From NCBI GenBank assembly GCA_030374765.1, contig JARGXX010000003.1, positions 248,001 through 312,000 on the forward strand: DNA of 64,000 nt, given 5' to 3'. The number at the start of each line of letters is the position of its first letter. Position 1 is the first letter of the stretch. The translations under genes were made by a program, and so were the position numbers. A model generated the notes under the pieces. It did no database searches. It worked only from the letters and a program-made list of their open reading frames with translations, and had not been told where the DNA came from. Shown piece by piece: positions 2,506 to 44,991 of the stretch. This stretch comes from Agarophyton chilense. Taxonomy: Eukaryota; Rhodophyta; Florideophyceae; Gracilariales; Gracilariaceae.

Positions 2506-2802
2506 CAATATTGGCCGTGACGTGACCAATATTGCTTCCACCGTACAATGTTGGCCTACGCTGTTGCCACATGGGCCAATGAATCTCGCATCCTGAGATT
2601 CTTTGTTCTTAGCATGCCCCATTTCTTCCAATGGGGACCGCTCATACGGCCTGTTAAAGAGTGTTTCATTTGAGTGTGAACACAGTTCACATGGAGTACA
2701 CATAGGTGAAATGTACACACTCGCTCTGCACTGCGTGCACCATACCATGAGGAGCTTACAGAGTGCCCGTTCGGGATGCATACAACACGTTGTATACACT
2801 CT
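2506..2802. repeat. cluster of perfect short inverted repeats (hairpins)
   Basis: At least five perfect inverted repeats lie within 300 bp: CAATATTGG/CCAATATTG (2506-2534), GAATCTC/GAGATTC (2581-2601), CCCCATT/AATGGGG (2617-2636), TGTGAAC/GTTCACA (2675-2691), and a compound structure at 2760-2802 in which outer arms AGAGTG/CACTCT enclose CCCG/CGGG (2766-2775) and ATACAAC/GTTGTAT (2780-2795), like a small cloverleaf. Position after a CACTA transposase suggests the subterminal repeat zone where CACTA transposases bind, but the sequence of each hairpin differs. It could also be the junction with TE-1, whose 5' end is missing here. Confidence 0.6.
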
Positions 2803-2936
2803 GTACGTCCCGTGTGGACCTACCCAATATTCTACAGGGGAAAGGAGCCCCATCGGCTCAACCGCTTCTGGAAAACCCCGAGGAGCTGCTCCAACACCCT
2901 CGGGACAAAACCGTAAAGGTACATGGTCCGCCTCCT

Positions 2937-4991
2937 ATGGCAACGGAACCTCAAAGGGAATTACCAATTGAGGTTGCAGCGGAGGAGCTATGGCCTCAGC
3001 TCGAAGAGCGAGCAAAAGCGCTCGTCACCCTCGCAGTCGAGGATGCATTCACCGTAAAGGAGAAGTCGGATACCCGGATGGTTCCGCCCTCAATGGACGT
3101 CGATGCATTGACCCGTATTGTGGTTGACCGAGCAGCACAAGAGCTATCGGACAGGATACCTGAAATGGTTAAACAGTATCTCTTTACAGCTGCTAGGGAG
3201 CATGTTTACCGCGCTGGGCAGGACCTTTGGGTTTCCGAGGGATTCGCAGAATCCCGACCTACACAGGTGAACATCGCAAAATGCATACCACAAGGGTTCC
3301 AAATGAATCATTTCACCCATTCCAAACACTTACCTACTGATAGTGAGTACCTACAAGGTCCAATGCAGAGTAAAAAGGTCCCGGGGAAGGTAGATCCTCA
3401 AGACATTTACCTGCCACCAATTACAGGTCTCGTTCAAAAGGATACCCATGAAGGTGGTCCCAAGGACGATTCTTTTGAATCGTTGGATGAGCGACAAAGA
3501 AACAGAAAAGGTGAGAAGCGGAGGACGAAGAAGGGAAAGAATCGAGAGGATGATTCAGACCCCGACTCGTCAGACTCCAGTTCCGATACGAGTTCATCGT
3601 CGGATGATGACCGTAAAGGTAAAGAGAAGAAGAAACCGAACAGGTCGACGAAGAAGTCGTCGAAAAAGAACCGAAAAGGTAAAAAGCGATACAATGAGTC
3701 GCCTGACTCTGAGTCGGACACCGAAATGGACCTGAAGGTGCACCAACCGTTGAACGATATGTTCACCAAAGCGGTTGATTACAGGACTTATCTGTTGATC
3801 AAAAAGTCCTCTGAATACACCCAAGGGGTGGCCCAGAAGATTACTAAGCACCACAAGAATCTCAGCTTCCAAATGAGTGACACAACCTTCACAGGTACGG
3901 ATCCTATAGCGATAATTGAGTTTCTACAGAAGTTCAAGCTTGCATGTGACCAAAATGGGTTTTCAGAGGTCACTGCGATGTGGCTATTTCAGTTTTACCT
4001 TGAAGGACAAGCATACTACTTGCTGCAGGGTAGGCTCCGCGGCAACACCTTAACGATGGATGAGGATGGCACAGAGATGTTGGAGTTATACCCAGAAGTG
4101 GTAAATTTCCTTTTGGAAACATACGCCACCGATGAGGTTATCCAAGAGGCTTACTCGGAAGTCCTCGCTTATCATCAAAGGTCTAGGAAAATCGGATCGG
4201 AGTTTTCGCTCGCGCTTTGGAATCTGGCAACCCGTTGTGGTAATGTGTTCACTACCTCTAGGTTAAAGTCGCTATTTGCCGACAATGTCGACAAAGCGAT
4301 CCGTTCCCTGGTACGCAATTACCTGGCCACTAACCGAAAGGTAGATTACAATGGGCTGGCTCGATACTCCCAGGGCCTTGGAGATACCCCTCGGCTGGGA
4401 AAGAGACCAGCCGTGCCTCCAACCACGAAGGGTAAATCAAAAACGTCGGTCTTGGAAATTGAAGACACCACAACCTCAGAGGGTAGCTCGCACATCGAAG
4501 TACCTACAGAAACCGCTATCCACTTGGTAGCGACCCAGGGGCGGTTCTCGAAACCTTCGACGGTAGGAAATTGGTCGTCAACGCGTACACCAAACTCGGT
4601 ACAATCGCCGCCAAGTGCGATGAGCTCGCAGAGGATGCAGGGAGCTAGCTCCCATAACTCGCCACCCACATCCTACGCCACTGCCCCTACCAACCAGGTT
4701 TCGAAGCCCCCCTCAATGGTAACGGGAGATCCCCAAACTGGAGGCCTCGTTTTCTGGTTCTGTCTCGGGACACACCATTTGGCAAATAATTGCGCTAACT
4801 AACCTCCAGGGATGAGAGACCAGTTGATTCAGGCTCACATGCAGAATCACCAACGCCTCTATAAGTCTTCAACGCCAGCACCAAATAGGTTCCAACCCCG
4901 TACACAGGTACAGGTCAATACCATCGAGGAAACACCAAACTTGAACTCAACCCCTCCGGTACTGGAGGAAAACACCGAATGGTTGACGTAA
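2937..4991 (+). pseudogene. TE-1 Gag, one in-frame stop
   Basis: Capsid/nucleocapsid precursor of the retrotransposon. The first in-frame ATG is at 2937; 621 codons follow to a TAA at 4800-4802, after which the same frame continues to about 4991, so the TAA looks like an interruption. N-terminal region mixed; residues about 180-265 form an extraordinary mixed-charge tract rich in K/R and S/D/E; the Gag core follows (to about residue 480); near the stop a degenerate CCHC zinc knuckle has lost its first paired cysteines. The mixed-charge tract and core recur in the Gags of TE-3, TE-4 and TE-5. A GTG-initiated frame extends upstream to 2763, but no ATG supports it. Confidence 0.65.
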
Positions 4992-5082
4992 TGGCCGAAC
5001 CCAACCTGCAAGTGGAAGGCCAATCGATACCTAGAACCTTGAAGGTGGAAGAGAAACGTCACAACCAGTTCCGGTTTGTCAT

Positions 5083-5742
5083 ATGAAGTACAATAACTAT
5101 AAAGTACGTGCTTCAATGTGTTTCTCCGATCGCCTTGCGGTTCCGGTCACCTGCGTGTTGGATACGGTGGCCGGCCCAAACGTCCTGAACTCTTACGTCA
5201 TACCTGAGACGGTACTTCGGAACTTGAGCCGACCTCCCGACAACAACCCGCTGGTGGATGCAAATGAGCGCCCATTAAACCTTCGAGGCATGCTCACCAC
5301 TGTGGTGCAACTCAGACACCTCAAGGTAAGAATGCAATTCTTTGTTGTGGACCGTTTACCGACAGATTGCCTACTAGGTACGAACTTCATTGACAGACAT
5401 GTGAAAGCAATCCTTCCTGGTTCCCATACAGTCGCCCTACGTCAGGGGGGACAAATTTCCATTTTAGGTAATACGGAAACCAAATGGGGATGGTTCGTCA
5501 AACCGAAGAAGGCGATATCCACCGAAACGGTCTCCAACAAATTGCGCATTACCAAACAGGTTTTTATCCCGCCAATGCACCAAATATTGGTACCGGTGTT
5601 GTGTGCGACCCCCGGGCTGGTCATATTACAAAACCATCCGAGGTTAGCACATCGACACCTCACCTTGATGGCTAATGGGATTGTCGACAACATCCCAAAT
5701 CAACCCTTTAAGGTGTGTCTCAGCAACCTTCAGCAGTCATGA
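5083..5742 (+). pseudogene. TE-1 retroviral-type aspartic protease, active site altered
   Basis: Pepsin-like protease domain that would process Gag-Pol. The frame opens at ATG 5083. The active-site triplet, normally D-T-G, reads D-T-V at about residue 24 (context LDTVAGPN), so the enzyme is probably inactive. The flap and second-half motif (L-L-G-T-N-F-I-D-R) is intact. It overlaps the following RT frame by about 70 bp; the two are joined by a one-base shift near 5731, which could be a mutation or a frameshift site. Confidence 0.6.
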
Positions 5743-7801
5743 CGTGAAGTTGCCGAAAAAAACCAATGTTGGCATAGCACTACCGGCACCACAAGGGGTC
5801 TTCACCGTAGCTCACACTGATCTCGGCGAGGTCGCCTTCGGTAAGGAAGGGGGGTGCGCAAATGCTTCCACAACCACAAAGGTATCGATTAATACCAACT
5901 TGGAAGCGAAGCTAACCGATAAGGCATCGGTATACAAAGAAAAGGAACCGGACCCCGAGAGGCAATGGCAATATACAGTTCAGATCGGTGAAGAAAATGG
6001 CCAACTGCGGGGCTTTATTATCCCCCTTCTGGAGGAGTTCGAAACCATGTGGTCAGGCCATCTGGGCCAAATTAAGGCCACACAGCATCGCATCGAGCTC
6101 CTCCCTGACTCGATGCCGATTTATCAGCAACCATACCGTGCAGATCCGAAGGCGAGAGAAGTAGAACTCAAAGAAGTGGATCGAATGCTCCAAGAAAATG
6201 TAATTGAACCAGCCAACTCGGATTGGGCTAGTCCCATGGGTCTGGTGCAGAAGAAAGGGGATAAACGTACGAGGTTCTGTGTGGACTACAGGAGGCTCAA
6301 TATTGTGACCGTCAATGATTCGTACCCGATACCTAGGATGGATGAGTGCATCGACTCCTTGGGAGATGCGCAGATATTTACCACGTTGGATGCCAATTGC
6401 GGTTATTGGCAGTTACCTGTAGGTGAGAAAGATCGAGATAAAACGACCTTCACGTGCCATGCAGGTTTGTTTCGCTTCACGCGGATACCTTTCGGGTTGC
6501 GCAATGCTCCAGCCACCTTTCAAAGGGCGCTGGACATCATCCTTTCGAAGGTTAAATTTACAACCGCCTTGGTATAGATCGATGATGTAATCATCTATTC
6601 TAGATCGGTAGAAGAGCATTTTACACACGTACGCACCGTACTAACCCTCCTAGCTGAGGCGGGGGTGACGCTGAAGCTACGCAAATGCGTCTTCTTTACC
6701 AGAACGGTTGAATACCTGGGCCACATCGTGGGCCCTGGTACCCTAGAGGTTGCGCCGAGCAACATTAGAGCCGTACAGGAGGTCAAAGTGCCACGATACC
6801 AGACAGACGCACGATCTTTTATAGGTTTATGAAACGTCTATCGTCGCTTCGTGAAGGGATTCGCGAAAAAAGCGGCTCCCCTCAACATGAAGCTCCAGAA
6901 AGATGAACCTGAACGGTTCGAGAATCTATCGAACGACGAAATGGATACCTTTGAGGAGTTGAAACGAGCGCTGTTGTCGCCGCCAATCTTAGCGTTACCG
7001 AAAACAGGTCTACATTACACGCTGGGTACAGATGCATCCCATGCCCAAATTGGTTGTTGTCTCATGCCAGAGCAGCGCAACGGAGACAAATTACCTATAG
7101 GGTACTGGAGCCGCGCTATGAATGAGGCAGAGCAGAACTACACCGTAACCGAGAAGGAATGTCTAGCAGTAGTGTGGAGCATGTTGATGCTCCGTCCATA
7201 CCTTTATGGTGAGCGCTTTACGTTAGGCACGGACCACGACGCCTTAACGTGGATCCTCAGACTCGCAAATGCGTCTGGTAGACTTGCCCGCTGGAGGTTG
7301 AGACTGTCGAAGTTTAAATACGACGTACAGTACCGTCCAGGTATCAAGCACAACATAGCGGACGCTACGTCACGCTTAAACACCTCAGGATTAGAGATAG
7401 AACCTGTGGACGATGACATCCCTTTCTTTTTGGTGTCATCAAACAAAAATGGTACCGGCGAACACCTAGAAGGATATTGGGACTTACCTGAAGAAGTTGC
7501 TTTGCGGAACACCGAAATGGCAACGCAGATACTGACCCTAGAGGAAACGAACGTCATGCCCGTAACCCGAGAGGAATTTCTACGAGAACAGGCCCAGGAT
7601 GTGCACTGCAGAAGCCTGGATGACCAAATTGGTTTTAAAGGATCACCGTTCGATGTGGATCACAATGGGTACATCGTGAGAAGTTCAACCTTGGATGGTA
7701 GCCTTCAAAAGGTGGTTCCGAAGGCACTGCGCCCTAGAGTCTTGTATCTCGGGCACTACCCGTGAATATCGGGACACCACGGTGCTATCAGGATGTATTA
7801 A
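5675..7801 (+). pseudogene. TE-1 reverse transcriptase-RNase H, in-frame stops
   Basis: RT blocks are clear: R-F-C-V-D-Y-R-R-L-N, Y-P-I-P-R-M, F-T-T-L-D-A-N, I-P-F-G-L-R-N-A-P-A-T-F-Q. The YIDD catalytic box has TAG in place of Tyr (6575-6577). A TGA (6830-6832) replaces Cys in the F-I-G-L-C-N-V-Y-R-R-F thumb segment. RNase H follows with L-G-T-D-A-S, T-V-T-E-K-E-C-L-A-V-V-W and G-T-D-H-D-A-L-T-W. Further stops are TGA 7763-7765 and TAA 7799-7801. All of these are in the same frame as the integrase that follows, so decay was by nonsense changes without indels. Confidence 0.75.
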
Positions 7802-9280
7802 ATCTTGAGGAAACGGTTCTATTGGCCTCATATGGCCCATGATGTCTATACCTTTGTAAGTCAATGTGAATCGTGTGTTCCTACCGGCGGTGGTATTCGA
7901 AAGCATCGAACGTACCTCAAGCTGTTTCCAACAGCGGGTCCGCTGGGCTTTGTTGCGATAGACCTTCTAAGACCACTTTTCAAGACCAAGAACGGGTATC
8001 AGCACATTCCAGTGATCACCGTCAGGTTCTTGAAGCTCACGAAAGCGATACCTTTAAAGGAGATGAAGTCAATAACGCTGTAAATCGCGTTCCTAAACAA
8101 TTGGGTCTATCCGTATGGTGCAACACTGTACTTACTTACCGATAATGGTTCAAACCTGTCATCGAAATGCTTCGAAGCAGTCTGTAACCTCTTGGGTATC
8201 AAGCACTATTTCACTACTGCCTACCCCTCGCAGACGAACGGACAGGTCGAGCGCTTTAACCACACATTGGTATCAAGGCTACGACAATATACGAAAGAGC
8301 ACCAAACTGGGTGGGATGAGCTGGTGCAACCGCTCAAATACTCTTATAACCTTCAGGTACACCGGTCAACGCAGACCACTCCCTTTGATTTGGTTCTTTC
8401 GCGACACCCCCCCGGTATTGTAGTGCAAGGAGATCATACCACCAGCACTGCAGCTGGCGCACGGACCCCTGCCCAGGTCAAGCGAAATACCCTTTTGAGG
8501 TTGAGGAGGGCTCTCAAACATGCAGACAGCCGCCTCACTGCAGCCCAGAAGCGGTACAAGGCCGACTACGACCGTAGGGAAACCAAAGTGGTCTCTGTAT
8601 CTTCGGGACAATATGTCTACATAGACAACCCACCTTCAGGTAAAAGACCACGACCGGGCGATGAAGCAGACCATGAAGCTATTGACAGAGATATCAATTC
8701 GAAGCTTCTACCCAAATTAGTGGGACCTTATAAGGTATTGAACGCACCAGACCACACTGTTACGGTTAAACAAGATGGAATACCGAATACGATATCAATT
8801 GACCGTATTACAGTAGCACCTGAAACGGTTCAACATCGAATTGAGGCAGGCGCCTCAGCCCGAGAGCCCAGAGCTGTAGGTCTGCGCACTCGACCCTCGG
8901 AGGACCCCACCCCAATTGAGGTGAACGATGATCTTCAACGTGATGATCCGAATTACAACCCTCTAACAGGGACGGAAATTGAACCTCCATCGGTAACAGC
9001 GGGAGCTCTCAACCCGGCTCCCACACACGAAGCTCCCTACTCGGAACATATGAACCCTCGAGGTAGCGTTCCCCCGAAAGATGAGGACCAAACCTCAGAG
9101 GAATTTCCCGTTGACAGTCTGATGGTCCACACGCGAACCTACAATGGTCTGACGTACACCGTCAGGTGGTGCGGCTGGGGCCCAGAAGGGGACACCCTCG
9201 AACCCCCAGCCGCAATACTCCCACAGTTCCGTATCAGGTATTGGCGCCGTCGCAAAGAGCCGATGACTGCAGACGGCTAA
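7802..9280 (+). pseudogene. TE-1 integrase with C-terminal chromodomain, one in-frame stop
   Basis: Continues the pol frame. Zinc-binding end C-E-S-C near 7868; catalytic core shows first Asp in F-V-A-I-D (about 7960), second Asp in L-T-D-N-G-S (about 8139) and Glu in G-Q-V-E-R-F-N (about 8248), so the D,D,E triad survives. TAA at 8081-8083 interrupts the core. The C-terminal tail ends in a chromodomain (Y-T-V-R-W-C-G-W-G-P-E-G-D-T-L-E, about 9150-9200), the module that steers chromoviruses to marked chromatin. The protein stops at 9278-9280, shortly before a polypurine tract at 9306-9320. Confidence 0.75.
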
Positions 9281-10529
9281 CCTTAGACCATCGTGGTACT
9301 CAGGCCTAAGGAAGGGGGAGAAAAGACGTCGTTTTCCGCAGAAGTTGGACGCATATGCGTGTCAGATTACCTACAAGGGAGGACACGAAAGAACAACCAA
9401 ATGTAACAGTAGAGGAGACAAGGAGAGACAACAATTTACTTTAAGAAGGACCTGTGGCAGAACACTCCCTTTGATTTGGTTCTTTCGCAAGACCCCCCAA
9501 TTATCATAGTGCAGGGAGATCATACCACCAGCACTGCAGCTGGCGCACTGACCCCTGCCCAAGTTAAGCGGAGTACCCTTGTGAGATTGAGGAGGGCTCT
9601 CAAACATGCAGAGAGCCGCCTCACTGCAGCCCAGAAGCGGTACAAGGCCGACTACGACCGTACGGTAACCAAAGTGGTATCTGTATCGTCGCGACAATAT
9701 GTCTACATAGACAACCCGCCTTCAGGTAAAAGACCACAACCCGGTGATGAAGCGGACGAAGAAGCTATTGATAGAGATATCAATTCGAAGCTTCTACCCA
9801 AATCATGGGGACCTCATAAGGTATTGAACGCATCAGACCACACCGTTACGGTTGACCATAACGGAATACCGAATACGATATCAATTGACCGAATTACGGT
9901 AGCACCTGAAACGGTTCAACATCGCATGGAGGTGGACACCTCAGCTCGGGAGCCCAGAGCTGTAGCCCTGCGTAGTCGACCCTCGGGGGACCCCACCCCA
10001 ATTGAGGGGAACGATGACCTACCAAGGGATGATCTGGATTACAAACCTCTAACAGGGACGGAAATTCAACCTCAAACGGTATCAGCGGGAGCTCACGACC
10101 CGATTCCCACACACGAAACTCCCAACTCGGAGCATATGAACCCTCAAGGTGGCGTTCCTCCGAAAGATCAGGACCAAACCTCCGAGGAATTTTCCAGTGA
10201 CTGTCTTTTGGGCCACACGAGAACCTACAATGGTCTGAAGTACACCGTCAGATGGTACGGCTGGGGCTCAAAAGGGGATCCCCTCGAAACCCCAGCCGCA
10301 ATACCCCCACACTTCCGTATCAGGTATTAGCGCCGTGGCAAGGAGCCGATGCCTGCAGACGGCTAACCTTAGAACTTCGTGGTACTCAGGCCTAAGGAAG
10401 GGGGAGAATATACGTCGTTTTCCGCTGAAGGTGGACGCATATGCGTCAGATTGCCTAAAAGGAAGGACACGAAAGAACAACCGGATGGAACAGTAGAAGA
10501 GACAAAAATTTACTTTAAGAAGGCCCTGT
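8372..10529. repeat. tandem duplication of integrase tail, chromodomain and polypurine tract (two copies of about 1.08 kb)
   Basis: 8372-9455 and 9458-10529 are direct copies: both start with the integrase segment T-P-F-D-L-V-L-S, run through the chromodomain and a CTAAGGAAGGGGGAG tract (9306-9320, 10392-10406), and end in the same ACTTTAAGAAGG sequence. Scattered base differences show the event is not very recent. Confidence 0.8.
9476..10330 (+). pseudogene. TE-1 second copy of integrase C-terminal domain and chromodomain
   Basis: 284-codon open frame from the downstream copy of the tandem duplication; it lacks an integrase catalytic core and cannot be an enzyme. The chromodomain (about 10,230-10,290) is preserved, but the terminal R-I-R-Y-W-R-R of the first copy is cut by TAG at the Trp codon. 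No start signal is evident; probably untranslated or a read-on product. Confidence 0.6.
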
Positions 10530-10832
10530 CGGTTTAGGAGCAATGGAATTAGGAATACACGGGTTATTGACTACCCACGGAGGAAAACCCGCGGAAATGC
10601 TAGGAGCCATCGACCTAAGAGGTAGCGGAGGAGCGGTAGCCCCGCCACTGGGCAGAGGAGTCGAAACCAAAGGAGGATGAACGAACGGAACCGCCGGAGC
10701 AGGTTGCAAAACCGCAGGGTTCAAGTTTGCACCTAGAAGGGGATCCGTCAAAGGATCAGATTGCGCCGCAGCAAACACGCTTGCCAGATTGGCAACCTGA
10801 CGGGTGGCCAATTGGTACATGTCCAACTGGAA

Positions 10833-12832
10833 CTAATTCCGGAACTCACCAAGTTGGTTCAGCGCCTTCATGTATTGCGCATGGCGCGGCAGCAAACCTT
10901 CAAGGAGCGTCAATGCAGCGACCACGGAGGTAGGCGCAGCCCTCTGAAAGTTGGTGACGCAACACTGGCGAATTCGAACCAGCAAACCGACCACGGCCGG
11001 AGAATCAACCATAGGTTTAGGCGGAGGCCGCGCAATACCCGCCAACAGAGGTCGAGCCGGACCAGCAACCCACGAGGAGCTCGGTTGAGTAGGAGTCCCA
11101 CCCGTAGGGATAGGCGACTTACGACCATGAGGTAATGGCTCGGACGGGAAGGGACCAGCATAAAGACCAACTGGTGTCTTTACAGTACCGTGATAAGGTT
11201 CGGGGCTCGCGGGAGCTCCATAAACAGGAGGCTCCCCGGGAAAATATTGGGTGTGGAGAGGCACAATCTCCCAAGTTGCGGGAACGAAAGCCTCCCAAAC
11301 TTTATGGGAATCCCAATGGTAATTCTTGCTTTGCTCGAGATACGAGTCCAAATCTTTCACGGTATAATCGGTCCCCTCAACGATGTTCTCGTAGCCAAAT
11401 CGGAAAATATCCTGGGCAACTCTCGGAGGTATGAAGAAGATGCGACCTACAGGTTGAACACCATCTCGGTATATGTCAGAGTCGGGATTGCGACAATCCC
11501 AATCGATACCGTAACGGGCGGCCTCCAGAGCCAGGATGGCAACCAACACGGTCCACTCCGAGAGGGCAATCGACCAAATGAGGTAATACCGCTTTAGGTT
11601 CCGGGAAATCTGACTCCCGAAGTACGCCGAAACCGGCGGATTGGGCACGCTCAGCGATAACGGAACCTCATAGGATTCCCACCACTCTGGTCGAAGCACG
11701 TGCCACTCGCGTCTGCCCTTTGTAGGTTGTGAGAAGTACTCGACGTTATGAAACATATGCAAAGCGCGAGTGTAAAAGTTGCGAGTGCGAACGCGACTCT
11801 CCGTCGCTGCATCCTCGCCCCACCTACTACGGTCAGCCCAAATGATAGTGGTGAAAGGCCGATTCAGGGAAACGAAGTCAGGTGAAACCGGAAGGTAAGT
11901 CTCCGAAATAGACGGGTACTGGCACACTTGCACCACCAATCGACGGTAATAATCCAGCTCCGGTTCGATGCGCACATACGGCAAGTCGCTCGGATATATC
12001 GGCGGGATGAAATACCTCAAGGTGTATGACGCTGCCGACTCTGGTAACATTCTAGTTGACCCTGACGAGGTTGAGACTCTTTGTCCCGTTTCTTCAAAAG
12101 CAAGGGAACGGAGCGAAGGCGCTCGCAGTCCCAACGGGACAAACCCAAGTAGGTATCCAATTGTAGACTGGTAAGAGCTGCCGGCAATGACGAATTCACC
12201 ACCGCCACAGGCCAATCGTGCTTCAACAGGTCATTGTTTGTCACCTGGTCGAAGGTAATACCAAAAGGTCCATACTGACTCCTCGTCCGGTTCGCCGCAC
12301 CGAACGCGAGATTGTGAGCCCAATTGGTTTGTGTTGTCGGAGAAAGTCCACCACTGCGTTGGTATGGGTCAGCCGGAGTCCCAGGAAATAACTTTGTCGC
12401 AGGGATAGGCACGCTGCGAAAACCAATGTTGGTAGGCGTTCGAGAGGTCGAGCGAGTCACCCTCTTGGTTATACCACTGCGTCCACGGCCACGCGATGGG
12501 CCGCTACCTGAAATGGTTGGGAAGGCCGTAGCTCGACCCGACGAACGAGGTGATGACTCGACCTCCACCGCCGCAGTGAACACCAGCGGGTATTTATCCT
12601 TCTGAAGTGACGCCTCCTCGGTCCGTTCTGAGGAGACGACCAACGTATCCAACCTTTCCGGTAGTACCGGCACCGACCTTTCAGGTGCAATAGGGGCCGG
12701 CGTACGGTCACGAGCGGTTCCAGACCTTTGAGGTATCGTGGAACGGGACCAATCCGACCTTAAAGGCATAACTGCAGCGGTATCAATCCCCTCGGAATCG
12801 CCGACTTCTTCAACCTCAATGGTCCCCGGCAT
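10833..12832 (-). pseudogene. TE-1 antisense accessory ORF (same family as the TE-3 antisense ORF), frameshifted
   Basis: Encoded opposite to gag-pol between the chromodomain and the 3' end. An ATG at 12,832 opens a Ser/Pro/Arg-rich frame that ends at 12,017; a second frame open from 12,215 continues to 10,833. The overlap (12,017-12,215) marks a frameshift. The second part (460 codons) contains a W/Y-rich domain: EWWESYEV, PPVSAYFGS, then IWSIALSEWTV at about 11,510-11,690. This aligns position by position with the TE-3 antisense protein (GWWSSVEV, PPVVSYLGS, LWSVVLTEWAV), roughly one residue in three identical over about 58. The C-terminal 100 residues are Pro/Gly-rich. No known domain is recognised. 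Confidence 0.65.
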
Positions 12833-12904
12833 CTCACGTCTCTCGAGCACTGGTGCTGCTTGTGGGGACGATCCACCCCTTCGAGGTATCGGTGACGAAT
12901 CCAC

Positions 12905-13680
12905 TATGCGGCGCGAGGTTCATCGACGTGGCACCGAATGGGTTTGAACGCGTGCGCGGAGGCGGCACGATCTTTTCATCGCCTTGAGGGTAAACCGTAA
13001 TGCAAAACCGGAAAAAGGTCGCGTAATTACCGACGGGGCTGCTCAACACCAATAAGGTCTCACAACCGGAAGCTTCCACCACGGACCCAGGCCAACACCT
13101 CAATGGTTGTATCGACGCAGTCTCAGGCCCCACCGGCGCCACGAGTCAATCCTTACCAAGTAGACGAAACCTGAAAGGTCGAGAAGCCAGGAAACCTTCA
13201 GGGAAAGCCAAACAGCACGGTTACGGTCGCGACGCCGCCAATTAAGGGCAGCAATACCTGAAGGGTTGTAGAGCCGTGGGAACGACCAGGCGGGACGGTG
13301 TGCGCAGGGACCGAGGAGGAAACTGAAGATTGAGTAACCGGGAAGGGTGACATACCAACTTGGTAAGACAGGGGGCTATGCGGAAGCAGAATCGCAAGCA
13401 AGCAGGGCCACAACCGAAAAGGTGTCCACGAGGGCGCTAGTTACACTGCGTTGCTCTCATGACAGTTGCTACCTGAATGGTTGTCGCTCAATTCGTGCGC
13501 CGACCTCGTCGCGCGCCCTCCCCAACCGATAGTGGAACCGAGTTCTGAACCTCAAGGGATCGCGCGTTGCGCACAGACACCACTCCAATGCCCGCGCCGC
13601 TGTTGCCCGCTACAACTCTATGGTTTGATGGAAGGAGACACGGGGCGTGCCTCACGGGTAGGAAGGGGATCTATCGTATA
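12905..13680. other. TE-1 non-coding segment dense in ACC-N4-6-GGT sites
   Basis: Only short overlapping frames here. The stretch upstream of the antisense ORF start would hold its promoter and leader if it is transcribed. It carries motif copies spaced about 45-80 bp. A purine-rich GGGTAGGAAGGGGATC at about 13,657-13,672 could be the 3' polypurine tract, but no LTR pair confirms this. Confidence 0.4.
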
Positions 13681-14240
13681 GTGGCGGAAGGGCTGACCGT
13701 TGAGGTTGTCAATATACTACACTTACCTTGTAGGTGATGGATGCGAGGGATCATCGGCCATGCAGCTCCGGGCGAGCTACCATCTAGGTGTTCTCAGCCA
13801 CGTGTAGTGTTGACATGTACCTTCTGGTTGAGTTATTGTTAGTAGTTGTAATTGTAATTATATTTATTCTAGTACAGTAGTGGAGTGGCCACCTGGCACT
13901 GTAACCAGTGCTGGCCAGGTCTCTGACAGTAGGTCAGAGACCGTGCCTTGCTGGCACCTCCCGGGTGATCTGGAGAGTGCAGTCCACTGCATATAGGGAA
14001 CTGCACCTCCCCCATCCTAATCTAATAAAGACAGGCACTACTTGGGTCACGACTATACCTTTTGGTTCATTGGTTTTCAACTACCACACAGGCTTTCCCG
14101 CGCGTGGACGCCTACCATCGTTCACCTACACGGTATAGGCTAGTTGCCCCACCGTTTGCCCCTGCGGGTTTTCACTGTGCCCTGTTACCATCGAGGTTTA
14201 CTACGTCTACCTTCTAAGGTTGAGCGTCACCACGCTCCCT
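13680..14240 (+). other. putative TE-1 3' terminal region (LTR-like, unpaired)
   Basis: Holds an AT-rich TATTTATTCTAG segment (about 13,861), a polyadenylation-like AATAAAG (about 14,024), and two perfect hairpins: GCACTG/CAGTGC (13,896-13,911) and GGTCTCTGAC/GTCAGAGACC (13,918-13,942). Ends near a short direct repeat TTGAGCGTCACCAC (14,220-14,233 and 14,245-14,258). These are LTR-like, but I find no partner copy at the 5' side, so the limits are guesses. Confidence 0.35.
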
Positions 14241-14259
14241 ACAATTGAGCGTCACCACA

Positions 14260-15635
14260 CTCCCGAGACAAGACAGTAGCATACCCCAGAGGTGATTGTA
14301 CGACATCATCGTAATTGAGGATCCCAAAATGCCAACAGTGTTCCAGAATTGCTGAAACACACGCTTATGGAGTGTTAGCAGATTCCACACTCTGTATTTC
14401 ACCGCTGGCGTCAAAAGCCATGATGATGCATTAAAGAAAATAATCTAGCTGTGATATATTTTTGATGGTTGGGAAGCTGTTTTCAACTAATCTGGAGGCG
14501 ATACGAATAACTCAGAAGCACAAAGTAGTAACTATCTAGTAGTAATGCGTTTCAGTTTCCTTTTTGAAGCGTACAGATTCGTATGAAAGAGGCATAGATG
14601 TCTCCAAGGTCTCTCTCAGACGATCACAACTAGCAAAAGACACCCTAAAATATTAGTTGGTCTTGGTTTTGAGCCATTCAAATTTATGAAAAGGTGAGAA
14701 GTTTGCCATTTGGTGTCCAGTGAGACAACTGCCGCAGGAAAAGAAACCCCATACATTGTAAATGTGTTTGAAACGTTTGCCGCATTCCAGAGATCTAGTG
14801 AGGTGTTCGGCGCTCCGTAAAGCCCTCTTTGTCAGCCCAATGTATCGGTTGAAGCGGGTTTGGTGTTCTCAGGAGGCGAGTTGTGCGAAAGCACTGTTTT
14901 GGATATGCCTAGAAAGCTTCCACAGATTTAAAAGTTTGCGACAGTCGTCAAGAATTGGTGGCGATCTAAAATGGAGTACTAAATGGAAAGCTGCCGCAAG
15001 CTGTGTCGCTTAATATTCTTTTCAAAAGACCAGCTTCAGATATAAAGTAAAAATATCTTTTTGTTGCTTTTTTTCGTCGGGAATCTTTGTAAGGGTTTTT
15101 TTAATGTCCAGTTCTGGTTATCGCAGAATCAGGAAGGCTATAGAATTCGTTACACATGTGGAATGTAGGACCGGAAGCCAGGGCGTTTGACCCCTAGTGA
15201 ATATTGACATGTCTTTGGTTTCGTCGGTTTTAGAAGATTAAGAAGTTTATACCGGAATACTTAAATCTCATGTTTTGTTTCTGTTTTCTTGAACGAAGCT
15301 GTACAAAAAGGTTGTTACCCTTTGTAAGTATGTGAGCTTCCTATGTTTGTATGTTCCTTCAGGAGCTCTATGCCACATGAAGGTGCCTTAAAAAGTTGCC
15401 ATGTTGCAGCACTTGCTTGAGAGCATGAACTGACACGTATCTGGCTGTCCCAACAAGGAATCACGAGCCGAAAATAGAAGGACAGTGGTTCTACGAAGGT
15501 ACATATTACACCGTTGGCCCCGTACAGTAATGATCAGTCTAACATTTCAGATGTTATCATATCCTCAAGCTATCCATATATCTTCCGATAATAATATGAA
15601 ATGGTAGAATGGATGTTGTGCTTGTTAGAATTTAG
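14260..15635. other. spacer between TE-1 and pullulanase gene, nothing recognised
   Basis: Only short open frames (longest about 83 codons at 14,762-15,013) without recognisable motifs. The last part is the 3' flank of the pullulanase gene. Confidence 0.5.
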
Positions 15636-25579: not shown

Positions 25580-25742
25580 TGTCGGCCTCTGTTTGGGGCT
25601 GTGTCCACGTGTGACGCGGACGCAGCCCCTCGCGAGCTGAAATATCAAAACCTTCCTGCGAGCGGTGGAATTGGTGGGGGGAGGGGGAAAAAAGAAAACG
25701 AAAAGAAAACAGAGGGTACGCTTGCCCGTAACAAGCCTTCCA
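25580..25742 (+). repeat. TE-2 5' LTR (163 bp)
   Basis: TG...CA ends, identical to 32,492-32,654. Unusually short. It includes an A/G-rich stretch (25,675-25,712). The gag-pol frame is open through it from 25,601 without an ATG. Confidence 0.95.
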
Positions 25743-28700
25743 TGGTACCGCATCCAAGGTCTTCAAATACGAAGATGTCTGAAGCTAACACTACTCGCGT
25801 TATGTTCGATGGTTCCGAAGGAGCGGAGGTCGAGCGTTTCTTCTTTGCGTACGAAAATGTCGCCATGCGCGGAAAGACGGACGAAGAGAAGGCAGTAGAG
25901 CTTCTCTGTCACTTAGAGGGCTCTGCGTTTGACTTCTATTATAGGACATTCGCAGAGTCAGGTTCTTTGACCAAGGAAGCAATGGACTACACCGCTGTAA
26001 AGAAGAAGATTATGGCTGAATTCATCCAGAAGAGCCAGCCAGAAGACGATGTCTATGAGGCAGTCTCTGGCCGCTTAGACCCTGAGAATCTGTTATCCTC
26101 TTTGGCCGAATTGGACGCGCTTTACAAGCGTGTAGGCTTTAACGATACCGCTTCCTTCGGGTTGCTTAGGAACGCGGTGGCCTCTATTCCTTACATGGCT
26201 CAGTTTGTCATGTACAGGGCGCCTTCTGACTATCAGTCATTGAAGAAGGCCATTGTGGAGTATCACGTTGGTCGAAAGGCTTACTTTTCTGGAGTCGGTT
26301 CCTCATCCTCCGCGGCGCTTGGTGTGAAGAATATTTTACCAAGGCCGGATGCTCGTTCCGGGACTACTCAGCAGCTCCAAAGCCAGGTCGAGCAGTTGAC
26401 CAAAAACTTTTCCGAGCTGCACCTGCTGGTGAAGAAGAAGTTTGACAGCGGAACTCCGGCAACGGCGGACAAGGACTGGACTTGTAGTTATTGTAAGAAG
26501 ACGGGACACGGTGCAAACCGTTGTCCTTCGAATCCGCATCGTGACACGAAGTGTTCGCGTTGCGGCAAGATGGGCCATTCGGAGTCTACTTGTTGGTCTA
26601 AACCTAGAAGGAGTGATTCTCGCTCTGTTGGGTTCGATGGAGCGAGGTCAGAGTCGCGGGAAGAGATGAAACTCAAGTCCGATGGCGACTCTAATCATGT
26701 TGCAGTTGTGCCAGTTGTGCAAGAGTCTGCTTTGGTTGATGTCGTGGCTGCAGCGAAGAGAAACGCCGAGGGCCAAGCTCTTCCGAAGCAACCTCGCACG
26801 AATGTCATGGATATTGACGTTCTGGTGAACAAGAATCCGGGCGAGCCCCGAGCGGCTGCAAGGCCGAAATCGAGGGGTAAGCGTAGGAAGTCCCGCAAGG
26901 TGAAGAAGCCTTCACAGGGCCTTCAGGAGCACGTCGGGAAGTATAATGTGGTAGCCGAGCTGGCTGCCGCATCGTGCGGGCTCACGTTTGGGCAGCTACT
27001 CCGTGGTGACGCTGAAGAGGCCAAGAAGCTTCTGAAGCGCCTACTGGCTGGGAGTGTGCCTAAGAGCCATGTGTCTGTCTTGAGCGCCTCTGGCCTCCCC
27101 CGTCGTTTGAAAGTCGTGTCTGTGAAGCTTTATGGCACGAGAACACACGCCCTACTCGACACTGGAGCTGTTCCGAATCTACTCTCGCTGGAGCTATGCG
27201 AACAGTTGACTTTATCGCCCCTGGCCACGTCAAGGAAGGTCACAGTCGCCGATGGGACTGTCGCCCAGGTGTTAGGCTGTGTCAAAGATGTGCCAGTCTC
27301 GTTTGGGACGATGAGCATCCCCTTAGACTTCCTTGTCGTCCAGAATACTCCGTTTGATGTCATTGTTGGTAGCCCGACGCTGGATGCCTTGCAGGCGCGA
27401 CTGGATTTTAGTCGCCAGCAAGTTACTCTTGCAGTCGGAGCAGAAGAGGTTCTGTTACCATTCTATAACGAACCCCCTGTTATCGATGGAGCTCGCACAG
27501 ATAGCGAGGACTTCACATCTCCTGAAGAATCTGATGCTGAGCGGTCTATTAACGCGTCATCGTCATCACCATCGAGCTCCGGGGATGAATCTGACGGTGA
27601 GCCGGACTTGGTATTGGCAATAGTGAACAAGGAGCCGTATGAACCGGATTTACAGGACTTCGATTGCAACGTGGATATCTCCGATGTTGATGAAGAGGGT
27701 GATCATTCAGCTCTACTAGCGTCAAAGATGAGGCATCTTCCTCGGGAAGCACAAGAGGACTTGACGAATGCCTTGAGGGAGACCAATATTACCGCCTGGG
27801 ACATTAGTGACCTCCAGCCGGCTGACGTTCCTGTGGTGCACTCTTTTGAGTTGACGGACGACAATCCGATTCATTCGAGAGTGCGCAGGATGCCCCCGAA
27901 GCACAACGCAATTGTGCGTAAAGAAGTTGATGAGCTGCTTGAGGCTGGAGTAATCACGCCTTCAAGTTCAGCTTGGTCCTTTCCAGTAGTCATAGCTACC
28001 AAAAAGGACGGTAGACCACGATTCTGTGTTGATTACCGTCAATTGAACAGGGTAATGAAGCCAACCAGGTGGCCGTTACCGAAGATCGAGGAGATCTTCG
28101 ACGACTTAGCTGGGTCGAAGATATTCACAACTCTAGACTTGTACACTGGGTACTGGCAAGTCCGCATGTCGGAGACTTGCAAGGAGATGACGACGTTTGC
28201 ATGCCGCTATGGAACGTACAAGTTCGAGGTGATGCCGTTCGGATTGATGAACGCCCCCTCGACGTTTCAGAGAATGATGGATGGAGTCCTACAGGATCTT
28301 CCATTCGCAATGGTCTATGTGGATGATGTGGTTATCTTCTCGAAGACGACCGAAGAGCACCTCCGTCATTGTAGGGCAGTGTTCGAACGAATTCTGGAAG
28401 CCAACTTGAAAGTTAAGGTCACCAAGTGCAGTTTTGCACAATCAGAGATAAAGTTATTGGGACACGTCATTAATGTTGACGGAATTCAGGTGGACACGGA
28501 CAAGATCAAGGACATTGTTGATGCTGCCGTGCCTACCAACGTCACGGAGTTGAGGAGTTTCCTTGGGCTGGCGGGATACTATCGCCGCTTTATCAAGAAC
28601 TTCGCAAGGAGCTCGGCGGTGTTGCACGCCGCCACCTCTGGCAAGAAAAAGTTTGAATGGACGAGGGAAATGCAGATTGCGTTTGAGCATCTGAAGGATA

Positions 28701-30415
28701 AACTTACGACGCCCCCCGTGCTGGCCTTCCCTGACTTTGACGCTCCGTTCATAGTGGAGACCGATGCGTCGTCGGTCGCGTTGGGAATTGTCCTCTCTCA
28801 GAAGAAGAAGGATGGGAAAGTACATCCCATACAGTACGCTTCGCGTACGATGACGGAAGTAGAGAGACGCTACTCTACGAGTGAACGGGAAGCGCTCGCA
28901 GTCGTGTTCGCTTTGAAGAAGTTCAGAGTGTATCTCCTCTCTGATATTCCCTTCACTGTGCTGACAGACCATCAGGCTCTGCAGTACGCGTTTAAGAAGA
29001 AGGATGTGCATGGGAGGTTGGCCCGATGGATGGACTTGATGGCCGAATACGACTTCGAGATTAAGTATCGCCCGGGGATAGTAAATGGTGCGGCGGATTA
29101 CCTGTCCCGCATGACTGGTCTTTCACGGGAGCCAGAGACTGTTGAAGGAGACTTACAATCAGAGGTAGTCGCCACAATTTCGTGGGCAGACCCTAGGCTG
29201 TCGGGACTTGAGCCGTACTTGCTTAATGTCGCCAGGTTCCTGGCCGGAGTTCAAGTCCAGGATGAGGACCCGAAAAGAAAGAAGTCGATCAAGAGGAACG
29301 CGAAGAGATTCATGCTCTGGAACGATACGCTTTTCCGGAGAGAGGCCGCTGGGCTGCGCGCCGTCCCACCTGTCGATGATCGCAGAGAGATCATAAGAAT
29401 GTTCCATGACGAGATCGGACATTGGGATGCCACGACGACGAGGAACTTTGTTCGGGACAGGTTCTGGTGGCCCGGTGTCTGCAGAGATGTCACGGATTAT
29501 GTCCGAGGTTGTGATGGGTGCCAGCACGCGCAGAGGATCCCGACCTACTACACGAACCTTCGAGCTCCTATAACGGGACTGTTCGAAACGTTCTCGATAG
29601 ACTTCGCAGGTCCCCTCGGCGCATCGAAGAATGGTAAGAGATTCGCTATCATTGCAGTGGAGCATCTCACAGGATGGCCTATTGCAGGGGCCACGGAGAA
29701 CTCCACTGCGAGCACGGTGATAGAATTCGTTTGGAAGGAGATCATACTGCCATTTGGACCACCGAAGAAGATCGTTTCGGATAACGCCAACGCCTTTACC
29801 GCTGGAGCAGTCAGGAACTTCATGACGAAGCATGGGATCGTGTGGAAAACCGTACTCCCGTACGCGCCTATGGAGAATGGGAGAGCTGAACGTATGGTGG
29901 CTACGATCAAATTGGCCATCAAGAGGACAGTAGTGCGTACTGACTTGGACTGGGCAGACTCTCTACCGCAGGTTTTGTATGGCTACCGTCGTCGCGATAG
30001 GGGAACAGTTCCGTCCCCGTTTCAGTTGATGTACGGAATCAAACCAAGGATGATGGCGAATGACACGGTGGCCCTCTTGCAGGGTGGCACGCCGCATCAC
30101 CGAGCGTTAGAATTAATGGGCGAGTCTGGAACCCGCGCGATGCAAATCGAAAGAGCGTGCATTCCTCGTGTGCCCAAGGGGAAAGTCAAATACTATGATG
30201 TCGGAGACGAAGTGTTAGTTGCACATGGACCCGCCTTTAATAAGTCGCGCAAGTGGCCGGCGTTCGAGTCATACTACTATGGCCCATGCCGCGTCACGAA
30301 GGCGACCCACCCTCGCTACGAACTTTTGTCCTCGACAGGACGTATAACGCGCACAGCCGTCCATGCGAGAAGGTTGGTTCTTTACAAAAGGAAACCTGTT
30401 CACCTACGCAGTTAA
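25742..30415 (+). CDS. TE-2 Gag-Pol polyprotein (1557 aa), intact
   Basis: One frame encodes the whole polyprotein, without a separate Gag stop. First ATG at 25,742; a second at 25,775 is an equally plausible start. Domains from 25,742: Gag; two CCHC zinc knuckles (residues 248-284, both C-x2-C-x4-H-x4-C); protease with D-T-G-A at D473; RT with R-F-C-V-D-Y and catalytic Y859-V-D-D862; RNase H starting with E-T-D-A (D1008); integrase with H/C zinc region and catalytic D1287, D1347 and E1383 (the D-x59-D-x35-E spacing). It ends in a basic tail without a chromodomain, so it is not of the same group as TE-1, TE-3 and TE-4. Making Gag and Pol from one frame implies protein-level processing or decay to set the Gag:Pol ratio. 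Confidence 0.95.
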   Translation: MVPHPRSSNTKMSEANTTRVMFDGSEGAEVERFFFAYENVAMRGKTDEEKAVELLCHLEGSAFDFYYRTFAESGSLTKEAMDYTAVKKKIMAEFIQKSQPEDDVYEAVSGRLDPENLLSSLAELDALYKRVGFNDTASFGLLRNAVASIPYMAQFVMYRAPSDYQSLKKAIVEYHVGRKAYFSGVGSSSSAALGVKNILPRPDARSGTTQQLQSQVEQLTKNFSELHLLVKKKFDSGTPATADKDWTCSYCKKTGHGANRCPSNPHRDTKCSRCGKMGHSESTCWSKPRRSDSRSVGFDGARSESREEMKLKSDGDSNHVAVVPVVQESALVDVVAAAKRNAEGQALPKQPRTNVMDIDVLVNKNPGEPRAAARPKSRGKRRKSRKVKKPSQGLQEHVGKYNVVAELAAASCGLTFGQLLRGDAEEAKKLLKRLLAGSVPKSHVSVLSASGLPRRLKVVSVKLYGTRTHALLDTGAVPNLLSLELCEQLTLSPLATSRKVTVADGTVAQVLGCVKDVPVSFGTMSIPLDFLVVQNTPFDVIVGSPTLDALQARLDFSRQQVTLAVGAEEVLLPFYNEPPVIDGARTDSEDFTSPEESDAERSINASSSSPSSSGDESDGEPDLVLAIVNKEPYEPDLQDFDCNVDISDVDEEGDHSALLASKMRHLPREAQEDLTNALRETNITAWDISDLQPADVPVVHSFELTDDNPIHSRVRRMPPKHNAIVRKEVDELLEAGVITPSSSAWSFPVVIATKKDGRPRFCVDYRQLNRVMKPTRWPLPKIEEIFDDLAGSKIFTTLDLYTGYWQVRMSETCKEMTTFACRYGTYKFEVMPFGLMNAPSTFQRMMDGVLQDLPFAMVYVDDVVIFSKTTEEHLRHCRAVFERILEANLKVKVTKCSFAQSEIKLLGHVINVDGIQVDTDKIKDIVDAAVPTNVTELRSFLGLAGYYRRFIKNFARSSAVLHAATSGKKKFEWTREMQIAFEHLKDKLTTPPVLAFPDFDAPFIVETDASSVALGIVLSQKKKDGKVHPIQYASRTMTEVERRYSTSEREALAVVFALKKFRVYLLSDIPFTVLTDHQALQYAFKKKDVHGRLARWMDLMAEYDFEIKYRPGIVNGAADYLSRMTGLSREPETVEGDLQSEVVATISWADPRLSGLEPYLLNVARFLAGVQVQDEDPKRKKSIKRNAKRFMLWNDTLFRREAAGLRAVPPVDDRREIIRMFHDEIGHWDATTTRNFVRDRFWWPGVCRDVTDYVRGCDGCQHAQRIPTYYTNLRAPITGLFETFSIDFAGPLGASKNGKRFAIIAVEHLTGWPIAGATENSTASTVIEFVWKEIILPFGPPKKIVSDNANAFTAGAVRNFMTKHGIVWKTVLPYAPMENGRAERMVATIKLAIKRTVVRTDLDWADSLPQVLYGYRRRDRGTVPSPFQLMYGIKPRMMANDTVALLQGGTPHHRALELMGESGTRAMQIERACIPRVPKGKVKYYDVGDEVLVAHGPAFNKSRKWPAFESYYYGPCRVTKATHPRYELLSSTGRITRTAVHARRLVLYKRKPVHLRS
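25743..25761 (+). promoter_or_regulatory. TE-2 candidate primer binding site
   Basis: TGGTACCGCATCCAAGG starts immediately after the LTR; TGG pairs with the CCA end of a tRNA. The matching tRNA is not identified. The first ATG of gag-pol uses the last LTR base and the first two bases of this site. Confidence 0.5.
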
Positions 30416-30637
30416 AGGATGAGCAGACAGGTGAGTAAACGGAAGAAGGGACGAAAGAAGACCTAGTATATTGAGAAGTTGCTCTCATCGAGCGGGTTCA
30501 GAGCCATAAAGCTTGAGCTGATGTCTGTGGGCAAGCGGGCTTTGCGAAGGGGACATGTGGAACATCTAATTGTAGCATTGCATGACGCCGATGTACAGCG
30601 ATGCCTTAGCATATGGATTCTACATCTATCAATGAAG

Positions 30638-31306
30638 CTACGCTGCACGAGTCTCCTTAGCCCTCTCGCGCTCGATTGCGAGCTTGCGACGCTTCTTCTT
30701 ATTGTTCGTTCCATTACGATGACGAGGCTTCTTAGAGCGTCCTTCAGTATCGGGGACATGGACCATCCGCACTTCTCGGATGCCGGTGAAAGTCGAAGTA
30801 TCGCCAACGCAACCCTCGAGGGCCCTTTCGCATAAAGTCAACGGAAACTCCTCAACACAATCGAGGATGATTCGACGGCCGGTGTCGATTACCAGACTGT
30901 GGATAACGCCGTTGGTTCCGTCGATAGTGAGAACATACACACCGGACGGGAGAGCAAGAACATCTCGAACACTCGGACAGTTACCACGAGTGACGTGGCG
31001 GAGAGTCACGTTCCATTGTTGCAGATGCTTCTGAGCATCACGGAAGTCGCGGATGCGCGGCGGAAGCTCGTTTTCGGTTTCGAAGAAGCGCGCAATCCGG
31101 CAGAAGTACTTCCAGTACTTCTCAGAATCATTTGAACCAAGAAGATCGAGGCCGTTGCATATGGCGGCCTGGATGCAAAGGTCGAAACGATCCTGAAAAG
31201 GAACGCACCGATAAGACAATTCGCGATACCTCGGCGTAATGGAACTCTTCCTTCGAGAACGGGAATGAGCCATGAGTAAGTGGCGTCCTTGGTTCCCTGT
31301 CTTCAT
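30638..31306 (-). CDS. TE-2 antisense ORF A (222 aa), possible papain-like fold
   Basis: Starts at ATG 31,306 (a second ATG 11 codons in) and runs without interruption opposite to gag-pol. Order of features: C44 and C50 in a predicted helix (DLCIQAAICNGLDLLG), a middle helical part, then strand-like G-V-Y-V-L-T-I-D, H136 (GVIHSLVID) and D149 (IILDCVEEF), 13 residues apart, and a very basic C-terminus (K/R-rich, residues about 185-215), a likely nuclear or nucleic-acid signal. Cys-helix, His-strand and Asp in that order is the layout of papain-like cysteine peptidases, but similarity is only at this level. It begins 15 bp after ORF B ends, so both could share an antisense transcript. Confidence 0.6.
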   Translation of the reverse strand: MKTGNQGRHLLMAHSRSRRKSSITPRYRELSYRCVPFQDRFDLCIQAAICNGLDLLGSNDSEKYWKYFCRIARFFETENELPPRIRDFRDAQKHLQQWNVTLRHVTRGNCPSVRDVLALPSGVYVLTIDGTNGVIHSLVIDTGRRIILDCVEEFPLTLCERALEGCVGDTSTFTGIREVRMVHVPDTEGRSKKPRHRNGTNNKKKRRKLAIERERAKETRAA

Positions 31307-31321
31307 ACACCAAGTGTGAAT

Positions 31322-31912
31322 TTAGAGTATGGCAAGTTCTCGGCTTTGACTTCCATGAATGAAGCGCCCTTGTTTGCTCTCCACGCGGTGTGGACTTCCT
31401 TCTTCGGCACCTTCGAAGAACAGGGTGTAGAGAAGGATCGAGTGATGGTCGTCAGTAGCTTGATCGATCCCAACAAATCCGAAATGAGTATTGTCCCAAT
31501 AGATGGTTGTAATGTTCCAATCCGCACCGGAACGCTGAGACGAATAGTTGTTCGAATCATGAACGGACTCAGTCAACCCAAGTTCTCGCAACATGATATC
31601 CGACAGCACGTAGTCAGGGGTGGCCTCAAGAAACAATAAGATTTGTTTCCCCACGATCTTGACGAGCTCTTCGCGGTAGAGTCGAACGATCTCCTCCGGA
31701 TTGGAAAGGAAAAGGTTGTACGCAGGATGCCGATGGGTCCGATGGGAATCAAGGGAGATGGCTACGATGTCTTCCCTATCGTGGAGAAGAGCCATGAGGT
31801 CCCGGCGTTCGTTACGAAGTCGCTGCGACACGCGCATCGCCAGCCCCCGCACATGTGAGCGAGGAACCCGGCGCGTCCGCTGGGCTCTCACTCGCTGCCT
31901 GGTAACAGCCAT
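31322..31912 (-). CDS. TE-2 antisense ORF B (196 aa), unknown
   Basis: ATG at 31,912; the frame is open upstream to 32,035 without another ATG. The first 40 residues are Arg-rich (RQRVRAQRTRRVPRSHVRG), followed by a predicted helical region and a strand-rich part (IYWDNTHFGFVGID). No family recognised, and no visible similarity to the TE-1/TE-3 antisense proteins. Located in an otherwise intact, recent element, so it may be expressed. A promoter would lie in the 32.0-32.4 kb GC-rich repeats. Confidence 0.55.
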   Translation of the reverse strand: MAVTRQRVRAQRTRRVPRSHVRGLAMRVSQRLRNERRDLMALLHDREDIVAISLDSHRTHRHPAYNLFLSNPEEIVRLYREELVKIVGKQILLFLEATPDYVLSDIMLRELGLTESVHDSNNYSSQRSGADWNITTIYWDNTHFGFVGIDQATDDHHSILLYTLFFEGAEEGSPHRVESKQGRFIHGSQSRELAIL

Positions 31913-44988: not shown

Positions 44989-44991
44989 GTT

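Follow-up and report, generated by a model that had tools for sequence, protein, structure and literature searches.

The window analysed here, a 64,000-nucleotide stretch of contig JARGXX010000003.1 of the red alga Agarophyton chilense (positions 248,001 to 312,000), holds a retrotransposon, TE-1, whose DNA is studded throughout its length with a short inverted motif, ACC and GGT a few nucleotides apart. The order of its domains (reverse transcriptase (RT), RNase H, and integrase, the last recognized through sister copies), together with its long terminal repeats (LTRs), is that of a gypsy-type element. The first-pass annotation had given 2910-14220 for the studded DNA; the bounds of the element obtained by aligning ten other copies lie outside those positions (Table 1). 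In the window copy the 5' LTR is gone, as are about 207 bp of internal sequence. Since the stretch 13674-14306 recurs at the 5' end of seven of the ten other copies (in one of them over only 386 bp), it must be the LTR of TE-1, lost from the 5' end here. The LTR pairs of those seven copies are 86-98% identical. As read from copies L023 and L024, the TE-1 LTRs have the ends TGTCGTA...TACGACA, and there is a 5-bp target duplication, ggcac. Chromoviruses are marked by a chromodomain at the C-terminus of integrase; among five proteins scanned, only that of copy L021 matched the chromodomain PF00385, and this below threshold (E 0.058, 13.8 bits against a cut-off of 25.1). All genome-wide results below refer to 79.8 Mb in 135 contigs. 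Besides TE-1, the window contains four further gypsy elements, TE-0, TE-2, TE-3, and TE-4.

Table 1. Features of the window (position 1 is its first nucleotide)
Feature	Position	Strand	Remarks
TE-1, whole element	2841-14306	+	Bounds from alignment to ten other copies; 139 ACC-N4..7-GGT sites
First TE-1 motif site	2910-2920	.	ACC-N5-GGT
TE-1 gag-like open reading frame	2841-4802	+	Open frame 2751-4802; 29 motif sites
TE-1 reverse transcriptase part	5669-6577	+	RVT_1, E 1.2e-14
TE-1 RNase H	6833-7765	+	PF17917, E 6.1e-32
TE-1 integrase part	8084-9280	+	Identified through homologous sister copies that carry PF17921/PF00665; end weakly resembles a chromodomain
TE-1 tandem duplication	8371-10529	+	8371-9455 and 9457-10529, 88%; single in other aligned copies
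TE-1 antisense protein gene	10521-13099	-	Broken; open pieces 10833-12230, 12017-12919
TE-1 3' LTR	13674-14306	+	10 motif sites
Last TE-1 motif site	14283-14293	.	ACC-N5-GGT
TE-0, young gypsy element (control)	25580-32654	+	163-bp LTRs, 100% identical; open frame of 1630 aa
TE-2, gypsy element	34771-45883	-	LTRs 34771-35663 and 44991-45883 (94.3%); 85 sites
TE-2 antisense protein gene	35590-37558	+	Broken; open pieces 35679-36407, 36530-37558
TE-3, gypsy element	50743-58715	-	LTRs 50743-51197 and 58264-58715 (90.4%)
TE-4, gypsy element	58900-64000, runs past window	+	Short complementary arms, whatever their sequence, in excess

The ACC/GGT array of TE-1

ACC-N4..6-GGT occurs 120 times in 2910-14220 and 122 times in the whole element, where 200 dinucleotide shuffles give 11.3 +/- 3.4 (maximum 21). 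The studding described in the first-pass annotation and its estimate of an excess of tenfold or more thus hold up under the shuffling it had proposed as a check. ACC-N5-GGT (62 vs 7.8) ranks at the top of all trimer pairs scanned at gaps of 0 to 15. The gap profile (N3 2, N4 24, N5 61, N6 36, N7 17, N8 8) peaks within the N4-6 originally given but extends to N7, and with the wider gap the count is 139 against 15.4 (shuffle maximum 25). The control patterns GGT-N4..6-ACC and CCA-N4..6-TGG occur 16 times each. From TE-1's own numbers of ACC and GGT, themselves raised by the motif, one would expect 23.3 sites, and on this basis the 122 found are a 5.2-fold excess. About 139 of the 333 ACC triplets are paired, and the unpaired ones lie at about 17 per kb, compared with 12-14 per kb in the window's other large parts. 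The AT-rich spacer (65%, where the element has 48%) contains no constant word; the exact form ACCTNNAAGGT, close to which many sites had been said to lie, was found only three times.

In the LTR, the genes, and the noncoding DNA alike, a site is met about every 80 bp, and none occurs in the flanks at 2284-2840 and 14307-15600, all as first described. They pay no heed to the reading frame (13/8/8 in the three frames of gag, 6/9/7 in pol, 7/4/6 in the antisense open reading frame), again as had been claimed. Density per kb is 14.8 in gag, 11.0 in protease/RT, 7.8 in 6578-6832, 10.2 in RNase H-integrase, 13.2 in the antisense region, and 15.8 in the LTR, so that the thinning reported for the RT region exists but is modest. 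There are no tandem arrays in 2841-14306. A periodicity analysis of the sites showed no signal at 9.5-12 bp and gave values of 0.18-0.23 at 165-200 bp. A two-block expectation-maximization motif model of the sites collapsed to low-information solutions only.

The nucleotides just outside the triplets are constrained: A..A and T..T are in excess there, and A..T and T..A are depleted. Counted as whole sites, AACC..GGTA stands at 23 vs 3.0 and TACC..GGTT at 21 vs 2.2, but the symmetric forms at only 4 vs 2.6 (AACC..GGTT) and 6 vs 2.5 (TACC..GGTA). The TE-1 site is therefore an asymmetric AACC-N4..7-GGTA, with half-sites AACC facing TACC, used equally in both orientations, which are intermingled along the element. 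Such equality in an asymmetric site points to double-stranded DNA, not RNA. Across the genome, AACC-N4..7-GGTA occurs 10,369 times on one strand and 10,318 on the other, compared with 3,728 and 3,679 at the control spacing N14..17, and the symmetric forms are less in excess (7,673 vs 4,823, or 1.6-fold, and 4,814 vs 4,171, or 1.15-fold).

The motif is present in all ten of the other TE-1 copies sampled and stops at the ends of the element; the second of the refuting conditions named at the outset, like the first, thus did not come about. The ten have 83-111 sites in stretches of 9.9 kb and 5-26 in stretches of 2.9-3.0 kb. Among them, L013 and L015 share about 5 kb and so do not count as two full copies independent of each other, while truncation or rearrangement affects L025, L027, and L023. 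(L013 and L015, at G000:C3:48378-63030, lie in opposite orientation no more than 15 kb apart.) All 30 RNase H loci examined in other gypsy elements, amounting to only four groups by sequence, are at background, each 3.3 kb having 0-5 sites where the reversed control has 2-5. A search of viral contigs with the TE-1 RNase H and the TE-2 pol query returned no relatives.

Comparison of the copies shows that the pairs are conserved. Inside the element bounds, the copies differ from one another at 4.9% of positions in paired ACC/GGT triplets and at 7.7% in unpaired ones; the bases around the triplets differ at 8.0% (paired) and 9.5% (unpaired). In the uncut alignment, which includes flanks outside the element, the figures are 5.9% for paired and 11.0% for unpaired triplets, and ACC..GGT pairs at distances of 20-79 differ at 8.0%, against the 5.9% of site pairs. 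The sites are also spaced. Judged by a model that already excludes overlap, too few site centers lie 12-20 bp apart (5 vs 14.6 expected) and too many 60-80 bp apart (29 vs 17.0), a pattern to be expected if proteins, each covering a footprint, were bound along the element.

Neighboring elements and their antisense proteins

TE-2 carries CGC-N4..6-GCG 61 times (14.0 in shuffled sequence), and this pattern is part of a wider pairing rule: in either orientation, A-C-nnn, a gap of 2-6, and n'n'n'-G-G, where the arms nnn and n'n'n' are complementary. The rule is obeyed by 85 sites, against 8.9 expected from distant pairs and 9.0 from 200 shuffles (maximum 20); with only one LTR counted, it is 78 against 8.5. 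Elsewhere it is at or below expectation or close to it (TE-1, 10 vs 8.6; TE-3, 4 vs 5.5; TE-0, 2 vs 4.4; host genes, 3 vs 5.0). The eight TE-2 copies examined, this one included, have 28-38 sites per approximately 4 kb each, and in them such pairs are seven times as frequent, distance for distance, as at control distances (270 pairs over 5 distances, 455 over 60). Between copies, the outer flanking bases of the sites differ at 2.3% of positions (controls 5.7%) and the arm bases at 4.1% (controls 5.5%). Arms with one mismatch are up 1.7-fold (125 vs 73.4). Compensatory changes are too few to judge: six of 579 changed pairs stay paired, and several of these are one event seen in several comparisons. 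Perhaps the varied arms are layers of old specificities, but the presence of 37 different arm words among 85 sites speaks against such an origin.

TE-3 has yet another motif, CC-N3..4-GG, found 216 times where 200 shuffles give 90.3 (maximum 131). TE-4 has an excess of arbitrary 4-bp complementary arms (209 vs 120.5), as does TE-1 when all of its ACC and GGT are masked (140 vs 94.5), whereas there is little such excess in host genes (178 vs 163.6), TE-0 (135 vs 125.8), or TE-3 (140 vs 122.7). When TE-4 is extended beyond the window (58900-64000 plus L067:1-2900), its excess is strongest for arms with A..A or T..T outside (41 vs 16). Other gypsy groups vary: complementary arms are 1.3-1.4-fold above expectation in L029 and L050, 0.8-fold in L051/L052, and 1.0-fold in L053, the family of TE-0. 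TE-0 itself has none of the codes of TE-1, TE-2, or TE-3, and host genes likewise lack those of TE-2 and TE-3. The codes are thus specific to families, while complementarity itself is favored in several gypsy families.

TE-1 and TE-2 have in common a gene for an antisense protein (ASP). Both genes are broken in the window, but TE-1 copy L005 has an unbroken ASP frame of 861 aa. Matches lie at no fewer than 91 places in the genome for the TE-1 piece and at no fewer than 118 for the TE-2 piece, many with stops. The two proteins are related to each other (E 2e-7 over 59 residues), and that of TE-1 is related to a protein of Gracilariopsis chorda (E 1e-12 over 247 residues); the named relatives, from A. 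chilense and G. chorda, are homologs within the Gracilariaceae. The ratio of nonsynonymous to synonymous substitution rates (dN/dS) is 0.40-0.86 in 15 TE-1 pairs and 0.54-0.91 in six TE-2 pairs. For comparison, integrase gives 0.42-0.58 in five pairs and 0.17 in one pair of 56 codons. Given the matches throughout the genome, the relatives, and the dN/dS values, ASP is a real protein, conserved and under moderate constraint. No Pfam match, to TRP28 (PF04195) or otherwise, was obtained with P0001, the L064 open reading frame, P0003, or P0004, and in the part of TE-4 beyond the window, ASP matches are no better than E 0.037.

Some observations concern the surroundings. To the left of TE-1 (1-2290 of the window), the plus strand has no open frame of at least 120 aa before 2597. 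A nearby host gene encodes a pullulanase; its first species-named match is from Chondrus crispus (66%). Elsewhere in the genome, gypsy matches repeat every 6,523 bp (G000 contigs C44 and C49) and every 9,734 bp (C5 and C78), like tandem arrays of elements.

What may read the sites

The array of TE-1, its confinement to one family, its conservation, its strand neutrality, and its even spacing are observed directly. The explanation we favor, with a probability of roughly 0.55, is that the array marks double-stranded DNA for a two-headed factor, each family having one that suits its own sites. The array would represent some 140 predicted binding sites for a sequence-specific DNA-binding factor, the unit being AACC-N4..7-GGTA read from either strand, in which the factor would touch two ACC triplets, inverted and variably spaced, with outer bases that differ. 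A protein dimer or a two-domain protein would bind the site on double-stranded DNA. Since neighboring families carry different codes, the factor would be encoded by, or matched to, each gypsy family. By coating the whole element, it may mark the DNA as self, and the marking would most likely serve to shield the chromatin from silencing or to guide the element's own integration or packaging factors. The leading candidate for the binder in TE-1 and TE-2 is ASP, unproven in that role; gag and integrase are candidates common to every family.

Several facts sit poorly with a two-headed factor. Binding is a prediction from the sites. TE-3 has a motif of its own but no match to the ASP of TE-1 or TE-2 at E 1, so ASP, to judge from these sequences, is not tied to possession of a motif. 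PDB, Pfam, and PHROGs gave nothing usable by way of a known domain in ASP, and a structure model of the TE-2 protein was unusable (mean pLDDT 28.2). The sampled TE-1 copies are about 90% identical to the one in the window, so counts across them are not independent. Genome-wide, AACC-N4..7-GGTA is only 1.56-fold above the control with the pattern reversed (6,647 and 6,678). TE-2 sites do not repeat the spacing of TE-1 sites (11 are 20-30 bp apart, vs 6.3). Above all, the freely varying, pairing arms of TE-2 are not what ordinary half-site recognition predicts, and the pairing rule, arguably stranger than the TE-1 array, is the main result left unexplained.

A bolder proposal would accommodate it. 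Perhaps each gypsy family tiles its whole DNA with a private two-sided code, that of TE-2 at least being a pairing rule, and the recognizer senses that two arms of double-stranded DNA are complementary to each other, perhaps by extruding or comparing them, with ACC/GGT in TE-1 as one specialized outcome. We entertain this only tentatively; to our knowledge, there is no precedent for recognition of DNA by the self-complementarity of two arms. It is broader than a purely structural signal, in that it also covers a protein that reads pairing. In the narrower version, a tiny hairpin or cruciform, of DNA or of one strand, would be recognized by a structure-reading protein, and TE-1 would again be a special case. 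The arbitrary yet complementary arms of TE-2 are what such a signal would produce, as are the excesses of arbitrary arms in TE-4 and masked TE-1 (unlike host genes and TE-0) and in the two further groups L029 and L050. Arms of 3-4 bp, however, are far too short to extrude unaided, and in TE-1 the word matters: 44 of the 61 sites with A..A or T..T outside have a CC arm. We consider the structural signal quite unlikely. If the hairpins formed instead in genomic RNA, perhaps as a distributed packaging or gag-binding signal, the inverted arms and loops of 4-7 would be natural, and there is one result in favor: summed over nine TE-1 copies that are not independent, GCC..GGT, compatible with G.U pairing, occurs 162 times against 95, while its reverse complement does not exceed expectation (117 vs 114), the outcome to be expected of a hairpin in sense RNA. 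That result counts against a mark in DNA. Two other wobble comparisons in the same copies lend no support, however, G.T pairs are not favored overall in the arms of TE-2 (16 vs 11.8; in one of the two orders, however, they are, at 12 vs 5.0), sites and their reverse complements are equally frequent, and the pair that would extend the arms is avoided (16 vs 36.9 in TE-1, 7 vs 16.0 in TE-2). RNA hairpins were therefore rejected, as the least probable of the explanations considered, the one contrary wobble result notwithstanding.

It may be that the element exploits a DNA-binding protein of its host, as the gypsy insulator of Drosophila does with its Su(Hw) sites. A host protein would account for the TE-3 motif without ASP and for the many ACC-N-GGT pairs in host DNA that the genome-wide counts imply. 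But with different codes in adjoining families, several host proteins would be required, and tiling that runs through coding DNA goes beyond any insulator known to us. On balance, a host protein seems unlikely. Finally, the sites might be by-products of mutation. Reverse transcriptase or repair could copy one arm into the other by template switching, leaving perfect short inverted repeats such as the arbitrary arms of TE-2, TE-4, and others. One would not then expect exact rules for the outer bases (A-C...G-G in TE-2, AACC...GGTA in TE-1) or slower change at the sites, and TE-0, which replicates in the same way, lacks these arms. A mutational by-product thus appears improbable.

Comparison with known systems

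Viewed by its sequence, TE-1 is a Ty3/gypsy LTR retrotransposon and can be filed under nothing narrower, because it lacks at least one defining feature of each of three systems that resemble it. Of these, the RM boxes of Sireviruses seem nearest in pattern, the VANC sites of VANDAL transposons nearest in function, and the aORFs of Retand and Grande nearest in having an antisense gene, so far as the sources cited describe them. RM boxes are described in 13 elements as family-specific palindromic motifs, 8-32 per element, with dyad symmetry around a short spacer; they cluster in two places, one being the LTR and the other the region before the env-like gene, and each element has one longer consensus (PMC2829016). 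TE-1 likewise has many copies of a family-specific palindromic motif, but its sites, about 140 of them, are minimal, have spacers of variable length and outer bases that differ, and extend from end to end of the element, gag-pol included. Sireviruses as portrayed there are plant copia elements, while TE-1 is a gypsy element with sites not confined to LTR and linker.

The first-pass annotation had proposed self-recognition of the VANC kind, with the antisense protein as one candidate binder. In the anti-silencing system of Arabidopsis, a protein encoded by the element binds the motif and removes silencing marks. VANDAL elements are reported to carry a short family-specific motif at high density, with other motifs in related families (PMC5735166, PMC10398659), and to that extent the analogy stands: the TE-1 motif is dense, dispersed, family-specific, and conserved at the level of DNA, and related families have different motifs. 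The details do not carry over. VANC motifs, in the account given, are tandem repeats in one orientation in noncoding DNA (PMC5735166); TE-1 sites are inverted, neutral in orientation, not in tandem, and found in coding and noncoding DNA alike. Moreover, VANDALs are Mutator-like DNA transposons, whereas TE-1 has RT, RNase H, integrase, and LTRs. Membership in the VANC system thus fails on motif placement, orientation, and element class.

The plant elements Grande, RIRE2, and Retand carry an antisense open reading frame, aORF-3R, and the sources on them mention tandem repeats but, in what they describe, no dispersed inverted motif (PMC7264820, PMC11963269). Unlike the Retand-type aORF, ASP shows no TRP28 domain and matches no Pfam family.

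More distant parallels may be drawn. TnpA sites in CACTA elements are, like those of TE-1, repeated, and they serve an element-encoded protein, but they are subterminal, whereas TE-1 sites are not concentrated at the ends. Dimers such as AP-2, STAT, and NFI recognize inverted half-sites with short flexible spacers, but those sites stand singly, with a regulatory role, instead of being repeated the length of a transposon. A search by title of the open-licence literature on dispersed or palindromic retrotransposon motifs and on red-algal LTR elements turned up no description of such an array.

How a selfish element distinguishes its own DNA within the nucleus is an open question, for which VANC provides one worked case. 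New in the present analysis are the asymmetric site used in two orientations, the conservation of pairs together with their spacing, and the private codes of neighboring families. In TE-1, the mark is woven into coding sequence and differs between adjoining families, and in two of them it comes with related antisense proteins. If the pairing rule of TE-2 is true, it defines a kind of site that would escape motif finders built on words or weight matrices and that could be sought in other genomes.

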